Positions 60,133 through 64,000 of a stretch of 64,000 bases of DNA are shown in pieces (within the stretch, counting starts at the first letter, position 1; each line of letters begins with the position of its first letter). Source of the DNA: [Lactobacillus] timonensis (GTDB taxonomy: Bacteria; Bacillota; Bacilli; Lactobacillales; Lactobacillaceae); assembly GCF_900240275.1 (NCBI RefSeq), contig NZ_LT964761.1:310298-374297 (forward strand), in the 5' to 3' direction. The translations under genes and the position numbers were made by a program. The notes beneath the pieces were generated by a model that was not told where the DNA came from, did not search any database, and worked only from the letters and a program-made list of their open reading frames with translations.

Positions 60133-62097
60133 CTATACCACGTTCTTGGCCGCTGTTGCAGGTTGATTTAGGTTAACCCGGTCGATGTGCACCCAGTTAA
60201 GCAGCAACGACGAAGTAACGACGGACACTGATGAAAAGGCCATTGCTAGAGCGGCAATTTCTGGTGTTAACTGAAGCCCGAGACCCACAAAGAGACCGGC
60301 AGCAATTGGGATCCCAATCAAGTTGTAAATCAGTGCCCAGAATAAGTTAAGTTTGATCCGCCGGAATGTTGTCTTAGCAAGTGAGAGTGCATTAACAACG
60401 CCGCGCAGATCATTTTTAACCAGAACGATTCCGCCTGCTTCAATAGCAATGTCAGTTCCACCACCCATGGCGATCCCGACTTCGGCCGTCGACAGTGCCG
60501 GCGCATCGTTAATCCCGTCACCAACAAAAGCTACCTTTGCTCCCTGTTGTTGGAGGAGCTTAACTTGTTCAGCCTTCTGGTTAGGCAAGACCCCGGCGAT
60601 TACCAGGTCAATCCCAACTTGGCGGGCAATCTGCTTAGCGACTTCTTCATTATCCCCGGTAATCATCACGGTAGTCAGTCCCCGCTGGTGAAGCGCCGCC
60701 ATCGTTGCGGCCGCTTCCGGACGGGAAACGTCCTGGATGGCCAACAAGCCGATAATTCGCTTGTTTTCGCCAACATAGACCACCGTTTTCGCTGCTTTGC
60801 GCAACGCGACCGCCTGCTGAGCTAATTCATCGTCCAGTTGCCAACCGTCAACCAGTCGTTCACTACCGACGGCAACCTGGTGGCCATCAATAACACCACT
60901 CACGCCCTGCCCTTCAACAACTGCAAAATCATCAACAGCCGACAGTGTTAAGTCGTCTTGCTGCGCCCGGTCGTCAACGGCTTTGGCCAACGGGTGTTCT
61001 GACAAGTTTTCCAAACTAGCCGCCACCATTAAAACCCGCTGTTGATCATTGCCAACAACATCCGTTACTTGCGGGTGGCCCGTGGTAATCGTCCCAGTCT
61101 TATCAAAAACTACCGTTGTCAACGAACTAACGGCCTGAAGTGTCTGACCATCCTTAATCAGGACACCCATTTTAGCTGACCGTTCAGTACCAACCATCAA
61201 AGCAGTTGGTGTTGCTAAGCCTAAAGCACATGGGCAGGCAATCACGATGACGCTCACAGCAAAGAGTAGTGACTGGATAAAAGTGGCCCCTAGTAGTGCA
61301 TACCAAATGGCAAAGGTTGCCAGGGCAATAATCATCACTACTGGTACAAAGTAGTGAGCGACAACGTTAGTAAAATCTTGAATCGGCGCGCGGCTAGTTT
61401 GGGCCTTCTTCACCATTTCAACGATCTGAGCCAACATCGTCTGGCTCCCCACCTTGGTCGCTTGAAAAACGAATGTCCCGGTCTGGTTGATCGTCGAACC
61501 AACAACCGCGTCGCCAGCAGCCTTTTCTACTGGCATGCTTTCACCAGTGACCATTGATTCATCAACAGCCGATTTGCCACTAATAACTGTCCCATCAACT
61601 GGAACCTTTTCTCCTGGCTTGACGCGCACTTCATCACCGACCTGAACGTCATTAAGCGGAACGGTTACCCACTGACCATCGCGCTTCACAACCGCTGACT
61701 TGGCCTGCAGTTGGAGAAGTTTACTGATCGCTCCTTCAGCATTCTGGTGAACCCGTTCTTCCATTGCGTCGCCCAGCGTGACGAAAACGGCAATGAAAGC
61801 GGCACTTTCGAAGTAAACGCTCCGGCCAGTAAACAAGGCGAAGACACTGTAAAAGTAGGCCACCGTCGTGCCAATAGCAACCAAGGTATTCATATTAGCA
61901 TCATGGTGTTTGGCAGCTGCCCAGGCGCTTGACCAGTAAGGTAAAGCTGCCACCAGCATAATCAACGTAGTGGTCACAAAAGCCACCCAGTTATAGCCAG
62001 GCATCATCCAGTGAAAGGGCATTGCCAACATCTGAATCAGGAGTGGCAATGACAGGACAAATGAAATCCAGAACCGCTTGGTTTCAGATAGCTTCAT
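60133..62097 (-). CDS. Copper-translocating P1B-type ATPase (CopA-like)
   Basis: A 654-residue pump. TM-CPC motif [14 protein letters not shown], phosphorylation [12 protein letters not shown] locus SEHPLAKAV and hinge GDGINDAP are all present. The terminal helices carry YNLIGIP and [10 protein letters not shown], the P1B-1 copper(I) signature. There is no N-terminal heavy-metal-binding domain. The ATG overlaps the stop of the cupredoxin gene by 1 nt (TGATG); the two are translationally coupled. Confidence 0.93.
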
Positions 62098-62474
62098 CAC
62101 TTAACAACCACCTTTCCGTGAAACATATTCATTCCGCAAGCAAAGTCAATTGTCCCGGTCTTATCCGTTGGAATGTCAATTGTTGTCACATCCCGTTTTG
62201 TCAAGTCCTCATTAACCCCCAGCCGGTCAAAAACGACGTGCGACAGACAGGCAGTACTGTCTTGCATATCAAAGTTTAACTTCGCTGGAACTCCCTTTTT
62301 GAGAACAATTGTGCTTGGCGAATAACCACCTTTGACAACCACTGTTGCTGACTGTTGATTATCACTACCAGTGGCTAATTCAGCAGCCTCCTCGTGTTTT
62401 CCAAGGAACCACCAGCCAATCACTCCCGCCAAAATAGCTGTAACCACGACCGCAATGATTTGTGTTGTCCCCAT
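62097..62474 (-). CDS. Membrane-anchored cupredoxin-domain protein
   Basis: A 125-residue protein with one N-terminal membrane helix (about 4-24), then an extracytoplasmic cupredoxin-like domain. Metal-ligand candidates are ACLSHVVFD (Cys, His) and [10 protein letters not shown] (Cys, Met, His). Probably a copper chaperone or copper-binding partner of the ATPase it is fused to by overlapping codons. Start at 62474 with AAAGGGG upstream. Confidence 0.88.
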
Positions 62475-62608: not shown

Positions 62609-63367
62609 CTAGCCAGTATAAGGAGTAAATGGCTTAAAGCCCAGCTGGCTAATTGCTGCCCGTTCTGCTGGCGTCAGTGTTTTTTGCTCAAATGCGCGTT
62701 TCATTACCAGTTCGTGCTGGTGAATGCACAACAGCTGGTTGTACTCAACGAGCTGGTGTTGGAGCCGCCGGCGACGCTGGAAATCCGAAAACTCGACCTT
62801 CGATCCCGCCAAGCCATGACAGTACTGGCGAAAGTCAGCTAATTCGAGTTGGAGGTGTGCTACCTGGTCTGCCGCCTGCATGTTATTCAAAAAAGACTTC
62901 GCACACCACTGGACCGTCACCAGTAAAGGGGCATGGTTGTGAGCACTAGTAAATTGCAAACAGAGGTTATTATTTTTTCTGTCGGCAATTTCAGCATGGA
63001 CCAAGTGATGCGTCATCACCCAAACAACTTCCTCGTTAGCCGTGCCGCATGTCGGTACCAACTGGTATTTTCCTGCCACCGCTGCCCTGGTTACCCGGGG
63101 CATCCCCAACATTCGGTAGCACACCCGGTTATCCGCTTCGCTAATACAGTTTTCGGTAAAAAACTGCCGCAGTACCATGGTCAGCGGTCGGCGAATCAAC
63201 AACGTCTTTCCAGCCCGATCAACTACGAGGGTAGCTGGCTGTTCGTGATAGTCGCGACCAGTTAATAAGACAACCGAGTCCCAGGTAACGTGATAGGCAG
63301 CAACAACGTAGTCCACCTGTTGAAGAGGAAAAGTCGTGATGTTAATTGATAGGCATTGACCAGCCAT
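62609..63367 (-). CDS. ComK-family competence transcription factor candidate
   Basis: A 252-residue protein. Its middle (about residues 35-140) aligns by pattern with ComK: a VDRAGKTLLIRRPLTMVL segment, then YRMLGMPR..., a PTCGTANEEVVWVMTHHLVHAE stretch matching the Ser/Arg-Trp-Ile-His region of ComK, and a C-terminal helical part. It is longer than B. subtilis ComK by about 60 residues. ATG at 63367 with GGGGTG; longer frames upstream have no site. Divergent from a ComX-like gene, which supports a competence role. Confidence 0.65.
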   Translation of the reverse strand: MAGQCLSINITTFPLQQVDYVVAAYHVTWDSVVLLTGRDYHEQPATLVVDRAGKTLLIRRPLTMVLRQFFTENCISEADNRVCYRMLGMPRVTRAAVAGKYQLVPTCGTANEEVVWVMTHHLVHAEIADRKNNNLCLQFTSAHNHAPLLVTVQWCAKSFLNNMQAADQVAHLQLELADFRQYCHGLAGSKVEFSDFQRRRRLQHQLVEYNQLLCIHQHELVMKRAFEQKTLTPAERAAISQLGFKPFTPYTG

Positions 63368-63589
63368 GTAAGCACCCCGGTAAAGATAATTTGTCAAGCA
63401 GGGGAAAAGCGTCTTTGACCAGCAAAAGCGCTTTCTCCCACGCCAATTAATGAGATTACAGAAATAATGACTGGTTGTCAATAAGCTTTACCCATAAAAA
63501 GCACTTTCTTACTGTGTTTTCTTAAGAAAAGATTTTTCCTAAACTGTATTCAACCTTGGCCAGGGAAATCACAATGATAAGGTGAAAAC
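63368..63589. promoter_or_regulatory. Shared regulatory region of the divergent competence-like genes
   Basis: The 222-nt gap contains three copies of a related motif: AAAAGCGTCTTTG (63405-63417), AAAAGCGCTTTCT (63424-63436) and AAAAGCACTTTCT (63497-63509). It also holds a perfect 14-bp palindrome TTTTCTTAAGAAAA (63517-63530). AAAA...TTT pairs recall ComK K-boxes (AAAA-N5-TTTT) but with shorter spacing. Promoter hexamers are not clear. Confidence 0.6.
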
Positions 63590-64000
63590 ATGAGTAAACG
63601 AACGATGACTGAAGGCTTAAGTTTTCTGCTCGCAAACGAGCGGACTAAGCTCATCCACGGGGTCTTAAAAAGCCTCTACCTCCGACAGAGTGATGACGAT
63701 TACCAGGATTGTTTCCAGGAAGGATGCCTGCTCTTTGCCCAGGCTTACTGTGACTTTCCCCAAGAAGTTAATGAACACGAAAACTACCTAATGCACTTTG
63801 CTTACCAAAGGATCCGCTGGCGACTGCTTGACCAGCGCCAACGAGCATCATGGCAGGCAAGTCACTGCGAATGTTCCCTGGATAGCCCGGCGCTCAGCCC
63901 AACGCAGAAAGAGCTCCTCTTCCTCGACCCCGCAAGCAATTCGCCGCTAGCCGTCACGGCGAAGAACGACTTGTTTGCGCGCTTAGCTAATGATTGTACG
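63590..64000 (+). CDS. ComX/SigX-like alternative sigma factor, 5' part (truncated by window end)
   Basis: The frame runs from an ATG (AAGGTG upstream) to the window edge, 137 codons, without a stop. The translated part shows DDDYQDCFQEGCLLFAQAY, matching sigma region 2 core-binding and helical patterns of ComX/SigX-type small sigma factors. Typical lengths are about 160-190 residues, so only the C-terminal part with region 4 is missing. Divergent from the ComK-like gene. Confidence 0.7.
   Translation, partial: MSKRTMTEGLSFLLANERTKLIHGVLKSLYLRQSDDDYQDCFQEGCLLFAQAYCDFPQEVNEHENYLMHFAYQRIRWRLLDQRQRASWQASHCECSLDSPALSPTQKELLFLDPASNSPLAVTAKNDLFARLANDCT

Follow-up and report, generated by a model that had tools for sequence, protein, structure and literature searches.

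A ComK-like gene and a ComX/SigH-like sigma factor gene are recurrent neighbors in the Lactobacillales and may form a competence control locus

A protein that is, as judged from its relatives and from profile comparison, a divergent homologue of the competence regulator ComK is encoded head-to-head with a small sigma factor in the genome of [Lactobacillus] timonensis (Limosilactobacillus; Lactobacillaceae, Lactobacillales; 1.68 Mb), and the same two genes are neighbors in many other members of the order. This locus may control the ability to take up DNA in many lactobacilli and their relatives. In our view the two products probably control competence jointly, as SigH and ComK1 do in Staphylococcus aureus, with the sigma factor reading a box in front of the late com genes. 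The kinds of parts were already known; what appears to be new is the recurrent neighborhood, in an order said to lack ComK, and an element in the leader of the sigma gene. A 2012 paper on Latilactobacillus sakei describes the Lactobacillales as having no ComK homologue (PMC3364868), and among the titles listed in searches of open-licence PMC papers none concerns lactobacilli with a sigma gene next to a homologue of ComK.

The window, i.e., the whole stretch of DNA that was analyzed, is 64,000 nucleotides long (G000:C1:310298-374297). The comK-like gene (62609-63367, minus strand) is an ORF of 252 amino acids with an ATG start. A search with this single protein found relatives in 22 of 33 genomes of the same genus (its own included), whereas 23 further genomes of the order gave none; the relatives in the genus are only 24-37% identical to it, which indicates that this family evolves fast. 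The sigX/comX-like sigma gene is on the plus strand, and its first 137 codons are inside the window (63590-64000). Completing the gene beyond 64000, which the initial annotation had called for, gave a full ORF of 186 amino acids that ends at L001:9448, 150 nt, stop included, past the window end. Both ORFs are real, and so the head-to-head pair sharing a 222-nt intergenic region between the two ORF starts (63368-63589) is as originally described. Relatives were also sought among plasmids, and none were found.

The plus-strand protein is, by its sequence, a sigma-70-family factor of about the size of ComX and SigH. Its match to TIGR02937 (sigma70-ECF; 47.1 bits) is above the cut-off of 42.9 bits and, together with the length of 186 amino acids, upholds the family to which it had been assigned; the Pfam models for sigma-70 regions 2 and 4, taken singly, gave 16.4 and 16.9 bits, both below their cut-offs. 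The absence of late com genes from the genome had been named as an argument against a role in competence, but these genes are present and open: six comG ORFs are open, of which five match Pfam models, and so are comEA, comEB and comEC, all three of which have such matches. No comGG was identified at the comG locus, and transposase-like ORFs, recognized by eye, lie past the last comG ORF (L069 6509-9423; G000:C1 about 1329508-1332422), which may mean that the operon is disrupted at its 3' end.

The comGA leaders provide a candidate target for the sigma factor. Among 18 Limosilactobacillus comGA loci, 15 have a plausible start (L214, L218 and L223 have no reliable one), and 13 of these 15 have a CGT[ACT][CT] box at -26 to -31, whereas shuffled leaders gave means of 1.5 to 2.4, depending on the zone counted, and a maximum of 8. 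The two without the box are L217 and L228. An earlier count used 13 leaders picked with the box in view; the present one takes all of the plausible starts. CGTAT also occurs upstream of comEA in the timonensis genome. There, by eye, the comEA ribosome site is inside the 3' arm of a terminator-like hairpin that has CGTAT in its loop (L070 1918-1960; G000:C1 about 1391917-1391959), so that terminator and promoter appear to be overlaid. The conservation of the box in front of comGA would suggest that this sigma factor reads it in late com promoters. Streptococcal ComX/SigX is also a small sigma factor and acts on late com promoters, which have a short -10 box. The streptococcal box, TACGAATA, has only a loose resemblance to that of the Limosilactobacillus comGA leaders, and streptococcal ComX/SigX is not known to have a ComK partner. 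A sigma factor of this kind in a lactobacillus is SigH of L. sakei, the overproduction of which turns on comG, comE and comF; that it yielded no transformants counts against a competence role. Unlike the gene described here, L. sakei sigH is in a locus syntenic with B. subtilis sigH (PMC3364868).

The pairing of the two genes is found across the order Lactobacillales, which gives it much stronger support than the initial annotation could have had. A search with A3, a mixed alignment described below, found the ComK-like gene in 164 of 301 Lactobacillaceae genomes, representing 28 of 40 genera, and in 69 of 148 genomes of an order-wide draw. The sigma profile matched every genome of both sets (301 of 301; 148 of 148), and these figures were set aside because many of the weak matches span the helix-turn-helix end only. 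Gene placement was counted from 129 genomes with ComK-like and 137 with sigma matches, among the matches listed. Both genes could be placed in 110 family genomes, and among the matches listed they are within 1.5 kb of each other in 66 of these (54 divergent, 11 tandem and 1 convergent), on the same contig but at least 2.5 kb apart in 31 (30 of them at 2.5-47 kb) and on different contigs in 13. The count left out 17 genomes with weaker listed ComK-like matches (E about 1e-9 to 5e-7), all second matches and 11 listed sigma genomes for which no ComK-like row had been entered. One left-out genome, G111, has its listed sigma gene on another contig, and including it would make the count 66 of 111. 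Outside the family, the two genes are within 1.5 kb in 32 of 39 genomes (18 divergent, 13 convergent and 1 tandem); this count omits 16 genomes of one family (f8), in which the ComK-like matches cover about 60-80 columns only and the sigma matches are weak.

Of the best 30 ComK-like loci of the family search, which include the present one and were unselected for linkage, 20 have the sigma gene within about 1.5 kb and 18 are divergent to it. In four order-mates fetched with PF06338, a divergent sigma gene was present in all four, one of them broken. Most of the 40 regions fetched for closer study had been chosen for gene proximity, and therefore linkage was counted from the placement count and the family-search loci; the 82 leaders and the 66 intergenic regions discussed below are nonetheless drawn in part from those 40. 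Within the genus, 20 of 22 loci are divergent, L020 is convergent and L006 ends at a contig edge. L020 and L086 (G032:C25) are one and the same Limosilactobacillus locus, found convergent. Because proximity is kept while orientation is mixed, what is conserved is the linkage, more than a particular orientation. Some genera have the sigma gene away from comK and, directly after it, a pair of small genes, which encode DUF1659 and DUF2922 proteins in L245 (3241-4361); by eye, L246, L247 and L249 have the same arrangement.

The conserved element of the shared region is in the leader of the sigma gene. A dyad, P1, with the sequence CCTTGGCCAGGG (one T.G pair) is present at 63554-63565 on the plus strand, near the expected start of the sigma mRNA, and a corresponding dyad occurs in most of the 82 leaders. 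Its center is mostly 30-38 nt before the sigma start and, by eye, about 7 nt after a -10-like box. An exact even-centered palindrome with arms of at least 5 was found in the scanned zone of 71% of the 82 leaders, compared with 9% of shuffles. The sequence of P1 differs among leaders (for example, CTCAAGAGCTCTTGAG, CAAGGCCTTG, CCAAGGGCCCTTGG and CCACAAGCGCTTGTGG) and the arms stay complementary. In 25 of the 82 leaders, chosen for a strong P2 helix (see below), all eight of the eight pairs have changed on both sides, and 88.5% of the P1 cells are paired, versus 67.3% after shuffling and at most 54.5% after sliding.

The rule for P1 recognized it in 73 of the 82 leaders and missed it in nine, some of which have G.T pairs in the core; the 73 yielded 68 unique leaders. 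In 47% of the 68 unique P1 leaders the 3' arm of P1 and the bases that follow it can pair with the segment containing the ribosome site (P2; score of at least 14), compared with 9% when leaders were swapped and 4% when they were shuffled. P1 and P2 have this arm in common and are mutually exclusive. Among 16 hand-picked folds, 10 have P2 as their predicted minimum structure. The leader in the window was examined for a helix covering the ribosome site, as in S. aureus sigH, and the possible P2 helix there, TCAC/GTGA over the Shine-Dalgarno sequence AAGGTGA (63569-63585, plus strand), has 4 bp only and a score of 10, below the threshold of 14. Rfam had no match at gathering scores in 17 kb around the locus and none at E of 0.1 or lower in 11 loci.

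The P1/P2 leader of the lactobacillar sigma gene recalls that of S. aureus sigH. One study reports that a 13-base inverted repeat in the sigH leader likely hides the ribosome site, and that deleting half of the repeat turned on a SigH-dependent reporter in all cells (PMC3486894). The difference is that many of the relatives studied here combine a 5' dyad with a competing helix.

As far as the leader is concerned, the chances are close to even that P1 acts not as RNA but as DNA, as an operator bound by a dimeric protein where sigma transcription starts; it may also act in both ways. Self-complementarity extends to the central four bases of P1 with few exceptions (among 43 unique 16-mers retained because of their high dyad score, 41 for pair 1 and 42 for pair 2), although the loop of an RNA hairpin would not need it. 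Furthermore, P1 forms in two of the 16 chosen folds, P2 has only 4 bp in the window itself, and the folding energies of the leaders are only weakly lower than those of shuffled sequences (mean z of -0.44, versus -0.14 for an upstream control). However, the sequence of P1 varies freely while its pairing is kept, as in the eight of eight covarying pairs of the 25 chosen leaders; departures from pairing on the sense strand favor G.T over A.C by 15 to 4 (p 0.019, not corrected for kinship); and the 3' arm also pairs with the ribosome-site segment well above the swapped-leader control.

Upstream of the two genes, the putative promoters are of different quality. The comK-like gene has what is, from the sequence, a convincing vegetative promoter, TTGACA-17-TAATCT, with the -35 hexamer at 63476-63481 and the probable -10 hexamer at 63453-63458 (both minus strand, assigned by reading). 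By eye, an element resembling TTGAC[AG]-17-TAT[CT][TG]T is in the same place in 15 other Limosilactobacillus rows. A rule-based scan for promoters and terminators gave no sigma-70 match, i.e., it did not accept the comK-like promoter, and its one terminator is at chance level. For the sigma gene there is a possible weak -35-like TTTTCT (63517-63522, plus strand) separated by a 17-nt spacer from a possible -10-like TAAACT (63540-63545, plus strand); by eye, the TATGCT/TATAAT-like boxes that precede the dyad in relatives are in the same position as TAAACT.

These features lead to the following proposal for the competence control locus. The comK-like gene would be transcribed from its vegetative-type promoter, and its product would bind to and act on the region between the genes, with activation of the sigma gene as the most likely effect. 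The sigma factor would then direct RNA polymerase to comG and comE by means of the CGT[ACT][CT] box. In many of the relatives the 5' dyad of the sigma mRNA may compete with the helix covering the ribosome site, so that the sigma factor would also be held off after transcription. The genes themselves, their homology, the linkage across the order, the open late com genes and the conserved dyad of the leader are observed; that the protein binds DNA, which way control runs, what the leader does and whether the organism is transformable are parts of the scheme that we infer. The likeness to S. aureus is that both a ComX-like sigma factor and a ComK protein are present; in that organism both are needed for the transformation genes (PMC10182052). 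B. subtilis ComK, in contrast, works with the vegetative sigma factor (PMC3486894). S. aureus SigH and ComK1/ComK2 differ from the present case in being separate regulators, and the accessible text mentions no shared sigH-comK control region, whereas here the two genes are neighbors and often divergent.

A more tentative extension, which we hold to be possible but on balance doubtful, is that the order-wide locus unites the two known types of competence master regulator, the ComK family and the ComX/SigH-like sigma factors, in a two-key switch, and that a bistable leader of a type not described before, with the 5' dyad set against the ribosome-site helix, gates the sigma mRNA. Lactobacilli carry DNA-uptake genes, but most of them are not known to be naturally transformable (PMC12470161). 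If the two-key reading is true, lactobacilli would be silent, not incapable of transformation, because transcriptional and translational locks must both open. The conserved pair offers two genes to induce together and one leader to bypass, and hidden competence in food and probiotic bacteria becomes a directly testable question. The probabilities that we attach to these readings and to their alternatives are not mutually exclusive.

Some species have broken copies. For example, the sigma gene has in-frame stops in G131 (C1:431945-432409) and G053 (C1:1876244-1876633) and single stops in several more genomes, and the comK-like gene is split in G099 (C1:1150671-1153202). Broken copies in a neighborhood that is kept suggest a loss of competence control in some species. 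They would also fit the view that the whole locus is a decaying remnant, in which inertia or some other role, such as pili or nutrition, maintains the competence genes and no transformation takes place, as would the 137 of 301 family genomes that have no ComK-like match and the lack of known natural transformation in most lactobacilli (PMC3364868 and PMC12470161, as far as their available sections go). We regard a remnant as unlikely, however, since the genes are mostly open across species that diverge as fast as noted above, the neighborhood is kept, and the comG and comE ORFs are open in the timonensis genome.

A little less likely still is a toggle, in which the ComK-like protein would repress or brake its sigma neighbor. 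Where two divergent genes have overlapping control regions, one of them often codes for a local repressor, but classical ComK proteins are activators. The S. aureus proteins point both ways, in that ComK2 represses competence under strong oxygen limitation (PMC12491500), while ComK1 activates (PMC10182052). In addition, the pair is convergent in 13 of the 39 genomes outside the family, and with such non-divergent arrangements co-inheritance fits better than an obligatory repression through a shared promoter.

The proposal depends on the minus-strand protein being related to ComK, which the initial annotation had claimed; the claim is supported by relatives and by profile comparison but not by the window protein alone, which, as a single sequence, scores 12 bits against PF06338 (E 0.18), below the cut-off of 22.3. 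A PF06338 search of its own genome gave no match at E of 0.001 or lower, and a search of genome contigs with the single protein gave none, whereas the same search with an alignment gave 11 named loci. The comparison of A1, an alignment of 21 Limosilactobacillus ComK-like proteins, with A6, seven classical ComK proteins, is more informative: hhalign reported a probability of 82% and an E of 1.1e-5 over 119 colinear columns, and the negative control, A1 against the sigma alignment, gave a probability of 0.4%. The mixed alignment A3 matched classical ComK at E 8.1e-12; eight of its 22 rows had been found with the ComK model, and the homology was therefore rested on A1, not on A3. Independently, the curated cut-off of PF06338 is passed in 21 of 201 family genomes, including one of the same genus (G009), and the homologues in the order-mates L201 and L203 are also over it. 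L024, from the PF06338 family search, scores 33.8 bits with PF06338 and 103 bits with the Limosilactobacillus profile. Taken together, the relatives over the cut-off and the match between A1 and A6 lead us to call the protein a divergent ComK-like homologue and not a Pfam-grade ComK. That it is a lineage-specific regulator with a chance resemblance to ComK around a VPTCG motif is most improbable, because its weak Pfam score, comparable with those of unrelated families, and the fact that it is the only one of the 21 A1 members to match ComK at E of 1 or lower are outweighed by the colinear profile match with its clean control, by the relatives over the cut-off and by the divergent sigma gene, one broken, in all four fetched order-mates.

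Classical ComK activates late competence genes and is under MecA/ClpC control. The homology of the present family to B. subtilis ComK is at the profile level, over a conserved core in which the FPT..S...C.W region of ComK aligns with VPTCG..N..V.Y.M.H. The ORFs here differ from classical ComK in being longer (233-290 amino acids, versus 177-193 in A6), highly diverged and next to a sigma gene. NCBIfam searches with 22 ComK-like proteins gave ten families, each matched by one member, and a PDB sequence search with one classical ComK gave no ComK structure.

The shared region had been credited with three AAAAGC..CTTT copies and a perfect palindrome, through which the two genes would be wired. 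The palindrome, TTTTCTTAAGAAAA, does exist at 63517-63530; it contains the weak -35-like element and so overlaps the -35 region of the sigma gene, and it is the sole match in the window at up to two mismatches (0.40 expected; at least one match in 32 of 100 shuffles). Two of the three copies are AAAAGC-N-CTTT (63424-63434 and 63497-63507), but the third, AAAAGCGTCTTT at 63405, is spaced differently and is absent from the AAAAGCNCTTT matches at one mismatch. Two copies (63405-63417 and 63424-63436, plus strand) fall within the 5' UTR predicted for the comK-like gene and are not conserved, and the other, AAAAGCACTTTCT (63497-63509, plus strand), is 15 bp upstream of the comK-like -35. With one mismatch, AAAAGCNCTTT occurs eight times in the window, compared with 7.14 expected, i.e., at chance. 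Among the 66 divergent intergenic regions (own included), five have AAAAGCNCTTT with at most one mismatch, and exact copies, two of them, are found only here.

Genome-wide, AAAAGCRCTTTCT has three exact matches, two at this locus and one inside an ORF that by eye resembles a PTS transporter. At up to two mismatches there are 93, versus 119 for a reversed control pattern, and none of the 93 is near comGA or comEA, the late-competence promoters in which the motif had been expected. Since the motif is not conserved in relatives and has no genome match near these genes, a circuit through the AAAAGC..CTTT copies is unsupported. AAAAGCRCTTTCT was likewise rejected as the mark of a regulon: the genome scan gave no promoter set, the motif is species-specific and its extra exact match, the one whose surroundings were inspected, is intra-ORF.

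Two other candidate sites were sought in the same region. B. subtilis ComK uses AAAAN5TTTT boxes, and near-matches to these are clustered here, since six of the 60 window matches to AAAA-N5-TTTT at up to one mismatch are in the 222 nt, at four non-overlapping places, with 64.2 expected in the whole 64-kb window; however, across the 66 intergenic regions a spacing of N5 is no more enriched than N3, N4, N6 or N7, which is a difference from B. subtilis. CcpA cre sites, searched with the consensus, have no match at up to three mismatches in the 222 nt and are at chance in the window (147 versus 164.6 expected). Directly beyond the comK-like gene, at 60133-62474 on the minus strand, are two ORFs, one for a P-type ATPase of 655 amino acids that by eye belongs to the copper type and one for a protein with a cupredoxin domain (PF13473, E 7.2e-24).
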